This document shows, in pieces, positions 5,210 to 63,592 of a stretch of DNA of 64,000 bases; positions within the stretch are counted from its first letter, which is position 1, and each line of letters begins with the position of its first letter. This DNA comes from Candidatus Woesearchaeota archaeon (lineage in GTDB: Archaea > Nanobdellota > Nanobdellia > Woesearchaeales > DSVV01), in NCBI GenBank assembly GCA_018661705.1, contig JABJHR010000015.1:67525-131524 (forward strand), read 5' to 3'. The notes under the pieces are model-generated. The model searched no databases. It had not been told where the DNA came from and saw nothing but the letters and a program-made list of their open reading frames with translations. A program made the translations under genes and the position numbers.

Positions 5210-6409
5210 CTAATTATAACTTAAAACTTTAACAATTTTCTCAATAACAATATCCAATTCTTCATTACTAATAGTTAAAGGTGGTAGTAATCTTAAGACT
5301 GTTGGGCCTGCCGGCATGCAAACTATTCCATCATCCATTAAGTTTAAGATGTGTGGTTGAGATTTTTCTTTTAATTCTATACCTATCATTAAGCCAAGCT
5401 GTCTTATCTCTCTGATTTTAGTTATGCCGGCTTCTTCTATTTGTTTATTGAAATTTTCAACAAAGTAATTACCTTTTTCCTCTGCTTGTTTTGCTAGATC
5501 TTCTTCTAACATAAACTTAATTGCAGCATTTGCTGCAGCACAAGCTAAAGGATTGCCACCAAAAGTTGTTCCATGTCTACCTAAAGGAATTTCTACTTTA
5601 TCAGAACATAAAACAGCACCCATTGGAAAACCACCGGCTATTGATTTTGCTAAACACATTATGTCTGGTTGTAAATTAAAGTTTTCACAAGCAAACATCT
5701 TACCAGTTCTACAAAAACCTGTTTGTACTTCATCAATTATTAGCAAAATATTATTTTCATCGCAGAGTTTTCTAACTTCTGCAAAATACTCCTCGGTACC
5801 AATATTAACTCCGCCTTCACCTTGAATAACTTCTAGGATAATGCCTGCTGTTTTTCCATTGCTTTCTTCTACTCTCTGTCTTAACTTTTCAATGTTATTG
5901 AAAGGAACAAAACTAAAGCCAGGAACTAAAGGTTGGAAATCTTTTCTATACTTTGGATTAAATGTGGCACTTAATGCTCCCATACTTCTGCCATGGAAAC
6001 TACGCATTGCACAAATAAATTCAGTTTTCTCTTCTCCAAATTTAGTTTTAGCAGTGAATCTAGTAAACTTAAGTGCAGCTTCAACTGCTTCTGTCCCTGA
6101 ATTACATAAAAATGCTTTTGTTAAATTAGCAGGGGCTATATTTATTAATTTCTCAAGCAATAATGCTCTTGTATCATTATAAAAAACACCTGTGCACGTT
6201 ATTAACTTGCTGGCTTGTTCATTAATTGCTGCAATAACTTTTTCATTACAATGGCCAATGTTTGCAGACCCATGACCGCCAACGCAATCAATAAATTCTC
6301 TTCCTTCATTATCCCAAATTTTAGCATTCTTACCTTTAACAATAACTAAATCTCTCTTAGGATAAACATCAAATTCATATTTTGTTTCTAATTCTTTGTA
6401 TTTTGTCAT
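5210..6409 (-). CDS. lysJ: LysW-gamma-L-lysine/acetylornithine aminotransferase, class III PLP
   Basis: PLP Lys region IIDEVQTGFCRTGKMFACENFNLQPDIMCLAKSIAGGFPMGAV; lies in the LysW cluster. Confidence 0.88.
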   Translation of the reverse strand: MTKYKELETKYEFDVYPKRDLVIVKGKNAKIWDNEGREFIDCVGGHGSANIGHCNEKVIAAINEQASKLITCTGVFYNDTRALLLEKLINIAPANLTKAFLCNSGTEAVEAALKFTRFTAKTKFGEEKTEFICAMRSFHGRSMGALSATFNPKYRKDFQPLVPGFSFVPFNNIEKLRQRVEESNGKTAGIILEVIQGEGGVNIGTEEYFAEVRKLCDENNILLIIDEVQTGFCRTGKMFACENFNLQPDIMCLAKSIAGGFPMGAVLCSDKVEIPLGRHGTTFGGNPLACAAANAAIKFMLEEDLAKQAEEKGNYFVENFNKQIEEAGITKIREIRQLGLMIGIELKEKSQPHILNLMDDGIVCMPAGPTVLRLLPPLTISNEELDIVIEKIVKVLSYN

Positions 6410-6453: not shown

Positions 6454-6550
6454 AATAACAATAATCTTGACGGCGCTCACGGACTTTTGCTGCGCAAAAA
6501 TCCTATTCACCTCACTTTGTTCGGTTCATCAGCGCGTCATTATTGTTATT
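6454..6550 (-). ncRNA. Structured intergenic element, copy 1 (three-way-junction family)
   Basis: Perfect 12-bp outer stem AATAACAATAAT/ATTATTGTTATT; minus-strand core GACGCGCUGAUGA-ACC..GGU-GAAUA-GGA..UCC-GUG-AGCGCCGUC. Confidence 0.65.
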
Positions 6551-6571: not shown

Positions 6572-7372
6572 CTATGAAATAATTGTACCTTTTCCACTCA
6601 AAGCATCTTTAATTGGATGTTCTGTTCTTCCATCACTTATTATTACTATGCTAGCACCGTCTTCAAACAATTTTCTTAATGCTAACATCTTTCTTTTCAT
6701 TCTACCTTCTACTTGTTCTTCTCTTTCTGCTAATTCTTGTCTTGACATTTTACTAACAAGTGTACTTGGATCATCTTTATTTTCTAAATAACCAGGTGCT
6801 TCAATTAATTGTATGATTTTGTCAGCGTGAAATGTTGCCTCTAACACATTAATGATATCATCATTCTCTGAGTTAATTGCAAAATTGTTTTCATCAATAA
6901 TTGGAATGCACAAAACAGGAGTATATCCATTATTTAACAATAAATCTAACAATTCTTTGTTAATTTCCTTAGGTTTTCCTGAAAAATCTCTGAGCAACAT
7001 TAACTTTTCTCCTTGCTTTGTTTTTATTCCTCGATTTCTTCTACCTTGGATTGCTTTTCCATCTATTCCTGATAAACCAACTGCATTAATTCCATTTTGT
7101 TGGCATAATTCTACTATTCTTTTATTTCTTAAGCCAGCATAAGCCATCATTTGCAAATCTATTAGTTTCTCGTCTGAAAATACACTAGAATAACCAGAGA
7201 CAGATTTAATTATTCTTTTTTCTACTCCCAACTCAGTAGCTAACTGGTCACGAGCAGCGTTTGCTCCATGGACTATGATAAACTGTTCTCCATTATTTTT
7301 TAATTCAACAAGATCTGCAATAACCCCTTGTGTGTTTATTCCAGCTCCTCCTCCAATTTTTATTATTAACAT
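6572..7372 (-). CDS. lysZ: LysW-aminoadipate/glutamate kinase (acetylglutamate kinase family)
   Basis: MLIIKIGGG start, IVHGANA, VGLSGIDG, ISDGRTEHPIKDAL; cluster context. Confidence 0.88.
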   Translation of the reverse strand: MLIIKIGGGAGINTQGVIADLVELKNNGEQFIIVHGANAARDQLATELGVEKRIIKSVSGYSSVFSDEKLIDLQMMAYAGLRNKRIVELCQQNGINAVGLSGIDGKAIQGRRNRGIKTKQGEKLMLLRDFSGKPKEINKELLDLLLNNGYTPVLCIPIIDENNFAINSENDDIINVLEATFHADKIIQLIEAPGYLENKDDPSTLVSKMSRQELAEREEQVEGRMKRKMLALRKLFEDGASIVIISDGRTEHPIKDALSGKGTIIS

Positions 7373-14448: not shown

Positions 14449-14540
14449 AACAAAAACAACAACAACAGGGGCACAGACGGACTTTACAAATAAAGTCCTA
14501 TTCGCCTTTGGCTCATCTGGCCAAGTTGTTGTTTTTTGTT
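14449..14540 (-). ncRNA. Structured intergenic element, copy 2
   Basis: Outer AACAAAAACAACAAC/GTTGTTGTTTTTTGTT; minus-strand core GGCCAGAUGA-GCC AAA GGC-GAAUA-GGACUUUA..UAAAGUCC-GU-CUGUGCC. Confidence 0.65.
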
Positions 14541-21285: not shown

Positions 21286-21434
21286 AGAGCTGTAGCTCAG
21301 ACTGGGAGAGCACTAGTTTGTTTTTAAACAAAGTGAAACTGAAGTTCCAGACTGGCGGCTTATAGATCTTATGAGGCCTACGCCAATGATTATTAGACAT
21401 CTAGGTGTCCGGGGTTCAAATCCCCGTAGCCCCA
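21286..21434 (+). tRNA. tRNA-like gene with ~75-80 nt insertion (intron) in anticodon arm; isotype unresolved
   Basis: D arm TA-GCTC-AGACTGGGA-GAGC, T arm CGGGG-TTCAAAT-CCCCG, 3' TAGCCCC-A; anticodon stem CTAG/CTAG; two A-C mismatches in acceptor stem. Confidence 0.6.
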
Positions 21435-28793: not shown

Positions 28794-31064
28794 TTATTCG
28801 TTATATTTGTTATCATTATTGTATCCTTCATCATAGTCTTTGTATTCTCCTTTTTCATAATCGCTATTGTAGTCTTTGTAATCTTCTTTGTAATCTCCTT
28901 TTCCATAATCGCTGCCATAATTATCATATTCTTCTTGATAATGATCTTGGTTTTCATCAAATTCTTGATACTGATCATCATCTTCATAATATGCTCCATC
29001 ACCTTCAGTCCATCCTTCAAGTTCTCTAATTGAATTTGCAAGATCCTCTATTTCATTCATGTCTGAATCTTCAATGTTTTTAGCTTGTTCTAAGATGTTC
29101 TGCAGTTCTTTTTTGTCAACAAACTCTGCTCCACCTTCACCAATAACCATGATTTTATCAGATTCTCCTCTTTTTAGAAATTCTGGTTTTTGATTATGCA
29201 TCATTTCTTTTTCTGCTGCAAATTTTGCTTCCATTATTACATGACAAGCCTCATCACCAATATATTCATCACCATTATAGCATTCAGGAGATTCTTCTCT
29301 TCCTTTTCTCCATTCATCACCATGTAATTCTTCCATTATTGCATGGCATGCATCATCTCCAATATATTCATCCCCATTATAACATTCAGGAGAATCTTCT
29401 TTTCCACTACTCCATTCATCACCATGTAATTCTTCCATTATTGCTTTGCATTCCTCTTCTCCAATAAATTCATCTCCTTCATAACATTCAGGAGATTCTT
29501 CTCTTGCCTTTGCCCATTCATCACCATATAATTCATCCATTATTGCACGACATGCATCATCACCTATGAAAGTATTTCCTTCATAACATTCTGGTGATTG
29601 TTCTTTATTACGTTGCATTTGTTCATCCAATCGTTCTTTACATTCTTCATCTCCAATAAATTCACCATTTTCTAAACATTGTTCTGCTATTTCACCATCA
29701 AAATCACCCTCACCATGCATTTGGCAATTATCCCAACCAACAAATTCTCCTCCTTCTATGCATTCTTGAGGGATTTTACCAGCTGCCATTAATGCTGTAT
29801 TACACGCTTCTTCTCCAATAAACTTTCCATTATCCATGCATTCTGGATCAGGAGGGCCATATAATTCATTCATTATTTCATCACATTCTTCAGGACCAAT
29901 AAATTCTCCTCCTTCCATACATTCTTTTGGAGGCGGTCCATGTATTTCCATCATTATGTTTTCACAATCTTCTCTTGTTGTTACCCCAGCTTTTTTACAT
30001 TCTGGTGGTGCAAATTTGTCAAACATATCTGTATCTTTTTCTTCTAAAAGTGCCATGAAGGTTTCTTTAACACTATCTCTCATAAATTCTGGAAGGTCTT
30101 CTAGAAAATCTTCTTCTTTTCCATCAAGTTCATTACAAGCTTTCATATCTTGTTCATATTCACATCTTACAGCTAAAGCAGAGTTTTCAATGCATTTATC
30201 TTTTTCACTCTTAACAGGGATGTCATCACAATTACACTTTCTTGGATCTTCTATACATTGTTTTAAGTTTTTTAAAATTAAATGAATGGATGTTTCTTGT
30301 CTTTTTTGAATTTCTTCTTCAATAATCTCAGCTAACCATTCCGGTGCATTGTCTGGGTCACATCTTGGTTCTTCTAACATAAGATTATAATCTTCTAATG
30401 CTAATTTATCACAAAGGTCTGCAATTTTTGTTGCAAGTTTTCCCGCAACCTGATTTTTATCTGCTTGAGTTTTCTGTGCATCAATTAATGTTTTTATTTC
30501 ATTTAAATCCTTTGGAAGTTCAGCATCCATTTCTGCTAATATTTTTCGAATAAACTCCATTTTTTCCTGAGTTAGTTTTTCAACCTCTGGGCTCATACCT
30601 TCTTCAACTAATCCAGAAACATTTGCATTTTCTAATGCTTCTAAGGTTTCTGCAGTAAGGTTTTTATCAGCCATTAATTTTGCTTCTGCTACTTTTTCAG
30701 CAGCAATTTCTGCTGCCTTCTCAGCTTTGTCTTCTCCCTCCGCCATTGCAAGTACAAATGTGTCTGCAATTTCATCTACAAAATAAAAAGGGCTGTCTGG
30801 AGTTATGCCTGCACTCTCTATAATTACTTCTTCTTCAACAAGTTCCTCTTCAAGAAACTCGTCAGGTATGTTTGGATCTGAGATATCTTCATCAATTTCT
30901 TTATTTTTGATTTCTTCGTCATACTCTTCTTCAAACTCTGCATAACTATCTGCTACTTCGGCACTTTCGGTTTCAAAACCAGGGCCTTCTGCAAAAACAT
31001 TTATTGATGTTATTCCTAATACAATTAATAATATGATTAATAATAATCCCTTTTTATTTTTCAT
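28794..31064 (-). CDS. Secreted protein: DUF5667-like N-domain, ~9 Cys-rich tandem repeats, Tyr/Asp-rich tail
   Basis: Signal peptide GLLLIILLIVLGITSINVFA; repeats ECYxGDEFIGxxACxAIMEELHGDEWxxxREESP; tail GDYKEDYKDYNSDYEKGEYKDYDEGYNND. Confidence 0.85.
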   Translation of the reverse strand: MKNKKGLLLIILLIVLGITSINVFAEGPGFETESAEVADSYAEFEEEYDEEIKNKEIDEDISDPNIPDEFLEEELVEEEVIIESAGITPDSPFYFVDEIADTFVLAMAEGEDKAEKAAEIAAEKVAEAKLMADKNLTAETLEALENANVSGLVEEGMSPEVEKLTQEKMEFIRKILAEMDAELPKDLNEIKTLIDAQKTQADKNQVAGKLATKIADLCDKLALEDYNLMLEEPRCDPDNAPEWLAEIIEEEIQKRQETSIHLILKNLKQCIEDPRKCNCDDIPVKSEKDKCIENSALAVRCEYEQDMKACNELDGKEEDFLEDLPEFMRDSVKETFMALLEEKDTDMFDKFAPPECKKAGVTTREDCENIMMEIHGPPPKECMEGGEFIGPEECDEIMNELYGPPDPECMDNGKFIGEEACNTALMAAGKIPQECIEGGEFVGWDNCQMHGEGDFDGEIAEQCLENGEFIGDEECKERLDEQMQRNKEQSPECYEGNTFIGDDACRAIMDELYGDEWAKAREESPECYEGDEFIGEEECKAIMEELHGDEWSSGKEDSPECYNGDEYIGDDACHAIMEELHGDEWRKGREESPECYNGDEYIGDEACHVIMEAKFAAEKEMMHNQKPEFLKRGESDKIMVIGEGGAEFVDKKELQNILEQAKNIEDSDMNEIEDLANSIRELEGWTEGDGAYYEDDDQYQEFDENQDHYQEEYDNYGSDYGKGDYKEDYKDYNSDYEKGEYKDYDEGYNNDNKYNE
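29240..29650 (-). repeat. ~102-bp tandem repeats within CDS 28794-31064
   Basis: 34-aa unit repeated with near-identical nucleotide sequence at 102-bp spacing. Confidence 0.75.
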
Positions 31065-34043: not shown

Positions 34044-34144
34044 CAAAAAACAACAACATCATAGGCATGGACAGACTTTTTCATTGAAAAAGTCTTACTC
34101 GCCTCAGCAAGCTTCGGCTCGCCCAGCCATATTGTTGTTTTTTG
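34044..34144 (-). ncRNA. Structured intergenic element, copy 3
   Basis: Outer CAAAAAACAACAAC../..GTTGTTTTTTG; minus core GGC UGG GCGA-GCC GA AGC..GCU GA GGC-GAGUA-AGACUUUUUC..GAAAAAGUCU-GU-CCA U GCC. Confidence 0.65.
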
Positions 34145-40406: not shown

Positions 40407-40431
40407 AATCTACTTTTTTAGATAAAAGAAA

Positions 40432-40543
40432 GCGGGGAGAGGGACTCGAACCCTCGATCATCGGGATCTGCGAAATCATCACATATTGCTATGCTCATAA
40501 TCCCGATTGCAGCCGATTGCCTTAGCCACTTGGCCACCCCCGC
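40432..40543 (-). tRNA. tRNA-Cys (GCA) with 41-nt canonical 37/38 intron (plus-strand 466-506 of 40 kb, i.e. 40466-40506)
   Basis: Acceptor GCGGGGG/TCCCCGC, D arm GCC..GGC, anticodon loop C-T-GCA-A, T arm GAGGG-TTCGAGT-CCCTC, T73. BHB: ATCGG/CCGAT outer, CTGC/GCAG 4-bp helix, bulges AAT and ATC. Confidence 0.93.
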
Positions 40544-45624: not shown

Positions 45625-45783
45625 TATGTTGTTTTATGTCTTTAATATAATATAAATGTTATGTCTGGATTTGTTTTTTTTAAATGTTTGAGTAAAAAAT
45701 AACAATGTGGTAATATAAATTGGAAAAAAACTTTAGTGAATAAGGAAGCATCCGCAATGTTCTTAAGTAAATGATGTACTAGC

Positions 45784-45875
45784 AAAAAATAACAACAACC
45801 ATGGCACAGACAGACATTTTACTTTGTAAAATGTCTTACTCGTCTTCGACTCGCCTGGCCAAGTTGTTATTTTTT
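45784..45875 (-). ncRNA. Structured intergenic element, copy 4
   Basis: Perfect 13-bp outer AAAAAATAACAAC/GTTGTTATTTTTT; minus core GGCCAGGCGA-GUC GAA GAC-GAGUA-AGACAUUUUAC..GUAAAAUGUCU-GU-CUGUGCC. Confidence 0.7.
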
Positions 45876-45906
45876 AGTATAAAAAGATTTAATCATAGGT
45901 CTCTTA

Positions 45907-45944
45907 AACACTAGGGCGGAGCCAATGTCGCTCACGAATTTTTA
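45907..45944 (-). repeat. F2 hairpin family copy
   Basis: AACACTAGGGCGGAGCCAATGTCGCTCACGAATTTTTA. Confidence 0.6.
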
Positions 45945-46210: not shown

Positions 46211-47299
46211 TTAAGAAAACTTTACAAACTTTAACTTCTTAACATCTTTCTGTGCCTTCTTTAGATCTTTAGTGAACTTTTTTAAGAACGCTTCCATCTT
46301 TTCGCATGCTATTTGTTTTATTTCTCCACTACTCATCTTGCCAGACTTATAGGCTTTATAGATTTTCTCTAGTTCTTTATCATCTTCAACTAAATGAGTT
46401 TTTAGTAGCTCAAATACCATGCACTTTTCTACTTCTGCCCCTAGTTTTCTATGTAATTCTAATGTTTCTCTTCCGCCTGTAACGGCTCGCATGATTTTTT
46501 TCTTTACAGAAGCAAAATCTTCAGGTAGTTCTACACAACTTTGTGGATGAGATTTAGACATTTTCATGTCTCCATTTAAACTAGAAGTAAATTTATGATA
46601 AATTCCAGCTGGCAGGAAATATTTCTCAGCTTTTGTTCTTCTAACAACATCTCGTGTTAATCTTATATGTGGATCTTGATCAATACCAACAGGAACAATG
46701 CCTGGCATTCGTTCTTTAAGCTGTGGATAAAGAATGTCTCCTACTTGTGTAACTGCAGCTAAGATTCTTGATGGATCTGCTTGCCCATAAATTGCTTTGA
46801 ATTCATTCAAAGTAACTTTCTTAGCAAATTTATATGCTAAGTGCATCACATCTTTGTTTTCAGATTGAAAATAGAATGTTGTTTTCTTTGGATCTAGACC
46901 AAGAGCAATCCATGCAGGAATATGAAACTCTAAAGCTCGTCTTTGAGCTTCTTCTAGTGTAATTCCTCTGGTTGTAGCTGCTTCTAAATCTGCTACTAAT
47001 ACAAAAGTTTTTGCACCATTTTCTTGGAAATATTTAACTTGTTCAATAACCATCTTATTTCCAAAATGTAGTTTGTCAGCAGATGGCATAATTCCTGTAA
47101 GAACGTAATATGGTTTTTTCTCTTTAATACACTTAGCAATAATACTCAAATCCCTGCCTGCAAAGACAGTGTGCCTTCTCATTAATCTATTTGGTTTAGG
47201 GAATTTTTTAATATCAAACTTATCTAATCCAAAATCCTTGACAATCTTAACATAATCCTCTACTAATTCACTACCCCAAGGATCTATTATCTTTTTCAT
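46211..47299 (-). CDS. trpS: Tryptophanyl-tRNA synthetase
   Basis: GIMPSADKLHFGNKMVIEQ (HIGH-like), KMSKSHP, QADPSRILAAVTQVGDILYPQL. Confidence 0.93.
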   Translation of the reverse strand: MKKIIDPWGSELVEDYVKIVKDFGLDKFDIKKFPKPNRLMRRHTVFAGRDLSIIAKCIKEKKPYYVLTGIMPSADKLHFGNKMVIEQVKYFQENGAKTFVLVADLEAATTRGITLEEAQRRALEFHIPAWIALGLDPKKTTFYFQSENKDVMHLAYKFAKKVTLNEFKAIYGQADPSRILAAVTQVGDILYPQLKERMPGIVPVGIDQDPHIRLTRDVVRRTKAEKYFLPAGIYHKFTSSLNGDMKMSKSHPQSCVELPEDFASVKKKIMRAVTGGRETLELHRKLGAEVEKCMVFELLKTHLVEDDKELEKIYKAYKSGKMSSGEIKQIACEKMEAFLKKFTKDLKKAQKDVKKLKFVKFS

Positions 47300-47386: not shown

Positions 47387-47476
47387 ATGCACCACCACAA
47401 CTGGCCAGGCCCACAGACTTTTGCAAGCAAAAGTCCTATTTGGCTTCGCCTCATCAGCCTGCTAATGATGGTGCAT
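47387..47476 (-). ncRNA. Structured intergenic element, copy 5 (divergent outer stem)
   Basis: Outer ATGCACCA/TGGTGCAT; CAGGC/GCCTG; minus core CUGAUGA-GGC GAA GCC-AAAUA-GGACUUUUGC..GCAAAAGUCU-GUG. Confidence 0.6.
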
Positions 47477-60908: not shown

Positions 60909-62291
60909 ATGGCAAAAAGAGGGAAAGCTGCAAAAAGAAAAAAAGCAGCAAAGAAATCTAAATCTATTGATAATTTACATTATTTAGGAATTCTAGTAAT
61001 AGTTGCAATTGTTGCAATTGTATATTTAGTAACAAATGGTAGTGGAACAGTTAGTGAAGATGATTTAGCTGGTGAAGCTACTGGTAAAACTAAGGATAAT
61101 TATTGGAAAGGTTATGAAATTGTAACACAAGAAAAAGAAAATACTGTGGAAGTTGAATTTGGTTGCCCAGACGGTAAAAAAATATTGGGTGGTGGCTGTA
61201 AGGGTCTTGGTGGGCCTGGTGCGTTAATTAGTTCAAGACCATGGTCTCAAGCTGATGGTTGGCAATGTTATTATGATGATGTTAAAGACAAAATCATTGC
61301 ATATGCAATTTGCGCTTGTGTTAGTGAGGATACATGTTCTGTTTCACTTTCAAAAATTCCAACTGTAATTTCAAAAGATAGAATTCCGGTAGGAAGAATG
61401 GAGTTACCTAAAAGGAATATTCCTCCTCCTATAAAAGATGATGAATTTGTTGATTGCGCAGAACTATTTGGAGCAGAATATGAATGTTGGTATAATAATT
61501 GGGAAAGTGATTGTGATGGCGAATCAGATATAATACCCATCCCTCAAGGCAAATGTGAAGTAAAAACAGGTGGCTTTGAGAATTATTGCGTAAGTTGTCA
61601 AGAAGAAACAGCAGCTTGCGAAGGCGAAGTTACCTTTGCAGATCCTAACTTAGAACAAGCAGTGCGAGATAAAATTAATGTACCAATAGGACCTATTCTT
61701 GGTGAATCTGTTCAATCTGTTGGTGTGTTGTATGCTAATAGTAAAAATATTGCTGATTTATCAGGAATTGAATGTTTAACTAATTTACATCAACTAATTA
61801 TTAGTAATAATCAAATTAGTGATCTTGGTCCATTAAAAGGTTTAACTAAATTGACAGTGTTAAACCTTGGTATGAATCAAATATCTAATATTGAACCATT
61901 ATCTGGTTTAGTCAGTTTAAGCACGTTAAATCTTTATAATAATGAAATCTTTGATATTGTTCCCTTAAAGAGTTTAACTGGTTTAACATTTTTAAATCTT
62001 GAATATAATTTGATCACAGATATCAGTATTTTGTCTGATTTAACCCTTTTAAAATTTTTAATTCTTAATGATAACCAGATTAATGGTGTCGGTGCATTGT
62101 CTAGTTTAACTAATTTAAAAGCGTTAAAACTTCCTTCCAATGAGATTACTGACATTAATCCTTTGTCTGGATTAATTGGTTTGGATCAGTTGTGGCTTTA
62201 TGATAATCCTTTATCAAGTGGTTATTGTAATGTTATCACACAGCTCGAAGCAAATGGTGTAGATACTGATATGAGTTCTTCTTGCCCTTAA
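60909..62291 (+). CDS. Membrane-anchored leucine-rich repeat (internalin-like) protein
   Basis: Lys-rich N-terminus + TM; repeats LTNLHQLIISNNQISDLGPLKGLTKLTVLNLGMNQISNIEPL. Confidence 0.88.
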   Translation: MAKRGKAAKRKKAAKKSKSIDNLHYLGILVIVAIVAIVYLVTNGSGTVSEDDLAGEATGKTKDNYWKGYEIVTQEKENTVEVEFGCPDGKKILGGGCKGLGGPGALISSRPWSQADGWQCYYDDVKDKIIAYAICACVSEDTCSVSLSKIPTVISKDRIPVGRMELPKRNIPPPIKDDEFVDCAELFGAEYECWYNNWESDCDGESDIIPIPQGKCEVKTGGFENYCVSCQEETAACEGEVTFADPNLEQAVRDKINVPIGPILGESVQSVGVLYANSKNIADLSGIECLTNLHQLIISNNQISDLGPLKGLTKLTVLNLGMNQISNIEPLSGLVSLSTLNLYNNEIFDIVPLKSLTGLTFLNLEYNLITDISILSDLTLLKFLILNDNQINGVGALSSLTNLKALKLPSNEITDINPLSGLIGLDQLWLYDNPLSSGYCNVITQLEANGVDTDMSSSCP

Positions 62292-63457: not shown

Positions 63458-63592
63458 CAAAAAACAATAATAATTACGACTAAAGTCGAAATTATTAAGC
63501 TTGATTAACATCAAGCAACAACAATGGCACAGACGGACTTTCCTTCGTAAAGTCCTACTCGTCTTCGACTCGCCTGGCCTTGTTGTTTTTTG
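63458..63592 (-). ncRNA. Structured intergenic element, copy 6 (with two extra hairpins)
   Basis: Minus core GGCCAGGCGA-GUC GAA GAC-GAGUA-GGACUUUAC..GAAAGUCC-GU-CUGUGCC; extra AATAATTAC GACTAAAGTC GAAATTATT and GCTTGATTAACATCAAGC. Confidence 0.7.

Follow-up and report, generated by a model that had tools for sequence, protein, structure and literature searches.

The six elements of the window, by which we mean the whole 64,000-nt stretch of Woesearchaeota DNA that was analysed, are members of one interspersed palindromic repeat family of Woesearchaeota, a previously undescribed family of folded repeats of ~100 bases. All six are present on the minus strand, with covariance-model scores of 45-73 bits, and each forms one three-way junction within a long outer stem, which bears out the single intergenic architecture claimed by the sequence-only reading. 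Their E-values of 1e-11 to 1e-20 arise by construction, because the six elements or close relatives were within the training set of the model; copies from other genomes that were not used for training reach E = 1e-16 to 1e-17. The element had not been recognised as a named family, and no model of Rfam release 15 matches it: the 4227 models at curated cut-offs yield only two tRNAs in the window, and permissive searches gave no relevant match on copies 4 and 5 or on loci with second-type and distant copies. Moreover, a search of the open-access literature found no description of this repeat family, and one REP survey that covers archaea mentions neither Woesearchaeota nor DPANN. Large structured repeat families are most familiar from bacteria (REPs, BIMEs, ERIC and Correia); new here is a DPANN archaeal family with a conserved three-way junction and a strand polarity that can be measured, in a genome (G000) that lacks RAYT.

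The covariance model detected 75 copies in this 1.65-Mb genome, of an organism represented by metagenome-assembled genomes alone, at E < 1e-7, the weakest copy scoring 38 bits and the next match 18 bits, and a whole-genome search found 94 copies in the sister genome of the same genus (G001, SI047_bin3). Within the order, 35 of 292 sampled genomes are positive; they belong to many families, with a patchy distribution and one to tens of copies each (per-genome numbers in this sample are lower bounds), and in a sample of 284 genomes of the phylum every match falls inside the same order. The search of related archaeal genomes that had been suggested as a check has in this way returned many homologues. 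A pattern restricted to P3 found 21 palindromic places genome-wide versus 2 with the reversed control. An exact pattern scan gave no match in viral contigs, and the bacterial pattern matches from the scan of the genome collection (L113 and L135) were rejected as members by the covariance model. Copies occur about once per 15 kb in G000 outside contigs C19 (215 kb) and C6 (125 kb), which hold one copy apiece versus ~22 expected in all; these copy-poor contigs may represent either a different chromosomal domain or sequences binned from another organism.

Fold and strand polarity of the element

Read on the minus strand, the core runs through P1 (GGC-CA / UG-U-GCC), G R, P2, U A, P3 (GGAC.. / ..GUCC) and G U back to P1, where P2 is lengthened on its outer side by a Y-R pair and, as a rule, by two G.A pairs. 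The core is 45-116 nt long and consists of three helices, and its stem is prolonged by outer arms of ~10-20 bp, namely AAAAAAYAACAAC / GTTGTTRTTTTTT and variants, of which AAAAAAYAACAAC is the main arm in G000. The outer arms pair in nearly every copy read, with variable sequence; as had been noticed from the window alone, they differ between copies yet remain complementary.

Pairing was assessed on a hand-set structure with 23 core sequences, which gave 98.2% standard pairs and changes on both sides in 10 of the 17 pairs; none of 500 shuffles reached either value, and slid versions paired at 26-47%. An extended set of 73 distinct cores gave 98.5% standard pairs and two-sided changes in 15 of the 17 (0/500 shuffles; slid controls at 33-54%), in agreement with the earlier statement that pairing is kept while bases change. 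Unconstrained RNAalifold recovered P1, P2, P3 and part of the outer stem, and lengthened P1 by setting the GU of the last junction opposite the R and Y of GRYGA, a pairing in which all changes are one-sided. The Y-R pair is better supported than this arrangement because it covaries, as the sequence-only reading had proposed: among the 73 cores it is C-G in 41, U-A in 29, U-G in 2 and another combination in 1. Copy 4 takes the same fold as RNA (z = -6.6) and as DNA (z = -7.5).

There are two types of P1, GGC-CA/UG-U-GCC in copies 2, 3, 4 and 6 and NNGCU/AGC-like in copies 1 and 5, which corrects the description of P1 given at first. The tandem GA core is likewise not invariant, since copy 5 reads GA..AA at this position and the distant relatives L065, L070 and L080 have Watson-Crick pairs instead of tandem G.A. 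Constant across relatives are the lone R, the two linkers (UA and GU) and the helix order.

The two strands of the palindrome are not equivalent. Over all cores, G.T outnumbers A.C by 64:6 in G000, 62:4 in the sister genome and 8:0 in a more distant set, and the more stable fold is that of the sense strand in 74/75, 94/95 and 15/17 copies, respectively. Neutral decay of a double-strand palindrome is not expected to give such biases; together they indicate that the minus strand was rightly chosen and that the folded single strand matters. The data support the view that the folded minus strand is acted on, whether by selection or by some mechanism. Wobble tolerance confined to one strand, together with compensatory substitution, is what a structured RNA shows, and it is also expected of folded single-stranded DNA.

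Copies of the window, nesting and turnover

Copy 1 (6454-6550, minus strand; core 6472-6535) is of the second P1 type and lies between two lysine-biosynthesis genes, encoding a [LysW]-aminoadipate kinase (6572-7372) and an ArgD/LysJ-family transaminase (5210-6409). Copy 2 (14449-14540, minus; core 14470-14522) and copy 3 (34044-34144, minus; core 34064-34128) are of the main type, copy 3 having UG/CA instead of CA/UG in the inner P1. Copy 4 (45784-45875, minus; core 45803-45860), also of the main type, is bounded by the outer arms AAAAAATAACAAC / GTTGTTGTTATTTTTT. Copy 5 (47387-47476, minus; core 47407-47460), of the second P1 type and with the broken GA/AA tandem, lies upstream of trpS (46211-47299). 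Copy 6, again of the main type, was correctly located, but the extent first assigned to it, 63458-63592, is too long because a second hairpin repeat occupies its right arm. The element itself, with its left arm and inner right arm, spans 63516-63592 (minus; core 63526-63579), and the foreign hairpin repeat, CTTGATGTTAATCAAGCTTAATAATTTCGACTTTAGTCGTAATTATTA, spans 63468-63515 on the minus strand (approximate ends). The same hairpin repeat stands beside four more copies in G000 (C3:122553, C16:7511, C3:124904 and C1:13101).

Copy 4 sits in the apex of a second palindrome, whose right half (45731-45780, minus) reads ..TTTACTTAAGAACATTGCGGATGC..TTCACTAA and whose left half (45901-45940, minus) reads AATTCGTGAGCGACATTGGCTCCGCCCTAGTGTTTAAGAG. 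This palindrome belongs to a family of its own, AATTCGTGAGAAACATGTCCTTCGGACCTAGTG ... GCGGATGC ... CACTAGGATTTT, which hosts the junction element in its apex in G000 and is found without the junction at C12:34863, C9:58992 and C1:16812; the same stretch flanks other copies. Other features of the window include the two tRNA genes, at 21286-21434 (plus strand, 149 nt) and 40431-40543 (minus strand, 113 nt), which probably contain introns and were both missed by ARAGORN at its bacterial setting. An ORF of 756 amino acids (28794-31064, minus) contains coding tandem repeats at 29228-29604 and 28817-28936, with units of 102 and 48 nt, and a 460-residue protein encoded at 60909-62291 (plus) has leucine-rich repeats, with matches to internalin-type models well below cut-offs.

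The copies are intergenic, none in G000 and two in the sister genome lying inside long ORFs. Within tandem gene pairs, they run with and against the genes 24 and 15 times in G000, and 20 and 24 times in the sister genome. In the sister genome only, convergent gene pairs enclose more copies and divergent pairs fewer than expected, G000 having no such bias, and like-orientation runs along the chromosome do not exceed chance. Among the 73 genes beside distant copies, no family was seen more than twice and no transposase family is among the top 25 families listed; nor is any neighbour family enriched in 43 distant loci. The stretches analysed by script cover 0.48 Mb of G000 and 0.99 Mb of the sister genome, and no split copy with an ORF was found in the examined parts of the two.

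Another palindrome, present in intact form at other loci, carries many of the G000 copies at its apex. Full copies in the sister genome are immediately preceded by left halves (arm plus GGCCRGRYGA), as many as three consecutively, and followed by right halves (GTCCGTCCGTGCC plus arm), an arrangement that looks as if copies enter copies. Small hairpin repeats adjoin copies at fixed sides and in fixed orientation, as do CAAAAAGAGCCTGCCGGCCTGTTAAA and CACGGGAAACATGTCCTCCGGACCTAGT to the right of junction elements in the sister genome (e.g. C14:2961, C27:33573 and C11:1841). The right flanks of the sister copies C11:8089 and C33:66517 contain right-arm sequence in tandem arrays, (ATGTTGTTGTTGGATTTAATATCATC)n, as well as two right-half units with a tail of ~25 nt. 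In addition, inverted pairs of copies ~50-150 nt apart are present in several genomes. The contention that the family reflects selection on structure rather than a simple duplicated repeat holds in that substitutions are compensatory and not random; the copies are, however, dispersed, nested and in both orientations.

Comparison of syntenic intergenic regions of at least 100 bp with the sister species showed the element in both at 19 places, in only one of the two at 12 and 11, and in neither at 67. The 19 shared sites suggest that many sites are old, and 7 of the 19 shared copies are flipped. Some sites have similar flanks but cores that resemble each other no better than randomly chosen copies do, as is often so for orthologous cores; at one shared site, the core is 98% identical and the arms are different. 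Copy 2 and G001 C55:84110, a pair found separately from the 19, share their position and left flank and differ in P2, the Y-R pair, P3 and the loops, with pairing kept. The copy at G001 C12:17584 has a unique AT-rich arm that is still complementary. No target-site duplication was demonstrated in this comparison, in which the median protein identity is 71% and nested copies give approximate boundaries only. The pattern fits neither a fresh transposon burst nor an ordinary set of RNA genes, and slow turnover is the simplest story.

Candidate modes of maintenance

On balance we lean towards a REP/BIME- or MITE-like non-coding element that is spread and maintained as folded single-stranded DNA. 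Such a short element would spread and persist as a folded single DNA strand, of which a single-strand DNA processing enzyme would recognise the junction bases. New copies would prefer to land in existing ones, and this preference would explain why places are conserved with changed orientation and content. Turnover would be slow: now and then an existing copy would be replaced or would receive an insertion, and the fold would be needed on every such occasion. Some observations sit uneasily with this reading. No mobilising enzyme is tied to the element, and the near-total uniqueness of the cores (72/74 distinct in G000 and 86/89 in the sister genome) is unlike recent amplification; their 98.5% pairing despite distinct sequences suggests constraint locus by locus.

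The loops bear on the nature of the folded strand. Longer loops repeat a YGA..GAR module, and YGAR is a stable context for tandem G.A in DNA. Among the short P2 loops, 118 of 134 are GNA (91) or GNNA (27), all of the latter being GTTA, GATA or GACA, and the P3 loops include GNA (43), TTTA (20) and CTTG (17). The short loops of P2 and P3 include neither GNRA nor UUCG. When closed by G-C, GNA and GNNA loops form extraordinarily stable DNA mini-hairpins, d(GCGAAGC) having a Tm of 78 °C (PMC4686876). These loops and the YGAR context of the G.A pairs moderately favour folded single-stranded DNA, rather than RNA, as the active form. The loop counts are phylogenetically non-independent because the copies are related, the argument is not uniform since distant members (e.g. 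L066 and L070) have a TNC loop in P2 on the sense strand, and CTTG loops and G.A pairs suit RNA as well as DNA. Loop statistics for all perfect hairpins genome-wide gave numbers too small to inform.

A new structured RNA family, with the sense strand of each copy giving a small RNA or UTR domain that binds a protein or ligand through its junction, is a serious alternative that we nevertheless consider less than probable. Covariation, G.U tolerance and strand asymmetry are as an RNA would show, the sense RNA folds with z = -6.6, pairing stays at ~98% though the cores are almost all different, and RNA readily accommodates tandem G.A as well as the CTTG loop, seen in 17 cases. By contrast, the orientation to genes is inconsistent with no recurring neighbour family, the short P2 and P3 loops are devoid of GNRA or UUCG, and an RNA gene would not usually be nested, flipped or present in 75-94 copies. 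The original interpretation as a new structured RNA with a tandem-GA core is partly supported; its stronger form, that the element must be an RNA, is not supported. The family may serve as a test case for whether an RNA-like covarying structure can be maintained as single-stranded DNA, which concerns every pipeline that calls covariation "RNA".

More tentatively still, the element might be a self-homing, strand-specific three-way junction, with an archaeal single-stranded DNA (or RNA-guided) system recognising the folded junction and inserting copies into copies, so that positions would persist for as long as species do, with turnover of orientation, arms and hairpins. If true, this self-insertion pattern would point to an undescribed mobilising enzyme in Woesearchaeota.

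It is unlikely that the palindrome is neutral and that intrastrand template switching (quasi-palindrome correction) keeps its pairing without selection on the fold. The almost free yet complementary variation of the outer arms, as at G001 C12:17584, and the swapping of whole hairpins between orthologous loci would suit such a process. Correction, however, gives no preference for G.T over A.C, so the ratios of 64:6 and 62:4 already weaken this reading, and the unpaired R, UA and GU and the tandem G.A mismatches are kept rather than corrected. Template-switch correction may still have a part in shaping the outer arms. A cis-regulatory role (riboswitch, attenuator or terminator) for nearby genes, such as those of lysine biosynthesis or trpS, is very improbable: copies 1 and 5 do lie on the coding strand just upstream of the lysJ-like and trpS genes, and outer arms end in T-runs, but the family occupies both orientations and divergent and convergent intergenic regions alike, the 43 distant loci lack an enriched neighbour family, and the T-runs are paired within the arms, with some copies between divergent genes. 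A variant hammerhead-like self-cleaving ribozyme is scarcely credible, for although copies 1 and 5 read CUGAUGA .. GAA/AAA, and copy 1 and other second-type copies carry CUGAUGA followed by a stem and GAA, the Rfam hammerhead models give no match in searches reaching E = 10 and E = 5, position 14 (A or G) covaries with position 7, site 17 holds G or U in the second type, the G.A tandem can be replaced and the main type has CAGRYGA.

Comparison with known systems

The folded element resembles REPs, BIMEs and REPINs in being a high-copy, intergenic, strand-specific folded palindrome that is mosaic with other modules, occurs in both orientations and partly forms inverted pairs. The REP tag is GTAG (PMC3733652, PMC6006769), and the foot of P3, (G/A)TAG, resembles it. 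We took as REP a 20-40 nt hairpin tagged GTAG (GT[AG]G) in a genome with a RAYT (Y1_Tnp) gene, usually flanked by the repeats. In contrast, the present element is ~90-110 nt long with a three-way junction, its tag is not invariant (GTAG, or ATAG when the Y-R pair is U-A), and G000 has neither a RAYT/Y1 gene nor a REPtron arrangement: the Y1 transposase domain PF01797 is absent from this genome, which is 92.8% complete. Among eight Y1 loci scanned, only that of the sister genome has a copy, ~1.1 kb away. At this locus (L226, G001 C3:37441-37782), where the contig ends, lies one IS200-like Y1 transposase gene, separated from the junction element by a conserved gene. Since Y1 is absent from G000 and unassociated elsewhere, the family does not belong to the REPs, though it works like REP/BIME.

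MITEs and the ERIC and Correia elements are similarly short, non-coding and intergenic in both orientations, with inverted-repeat arms and nesting. The outer arms of the present family form terminal inverted repeats of variable sequence; unlike the fixed terminal repeat of those elements, they vary freely with compensation, and the core fold is constrained on one strand. The integron attC is likewise a recombination site folded from single-stranded DNA, and some G001 arms, ATCCAAC/GTTGGAT, fit its RYYYAAC / GTTRRRY core sites. Most arms, however, misfit, including the main G000 arm AAAAAAYAACAAC, and the element is dispersed in both orientations and does not follow cassettes in an array.

The tandem sheared G.A beside a short helix, and CUGAUGA in the second type, recall the hammerhead and the kink-turn of box C/D RNA. 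Rfam gives no match to either, the G.A pairs are replaceable by Watson-Crick pairs, position 14 is variable and there is no conserved cleavage base. The hammerhead core CUGANGA / GAAA / UH is lacking, and a kink-turn, with G.A directly after a 3-nt bulge, is ruled out because the covarying Y-R pair flanks the G.A, which is Watson-Crick in relatives.

To our knowledge, a three-way junction is not the known end structure of IS200/IS605 (HUH, Y1) elements, and no tnpA was found adjoining the element. Nevertheless, the family has in common with IS200/IS605 ends and their palindrome-associated derivatives that folded single-stranded DNA would be recognised via a hairpin and unpaired bases, and recognition of this kind would explain both the strand bias and the invariant junction bases.
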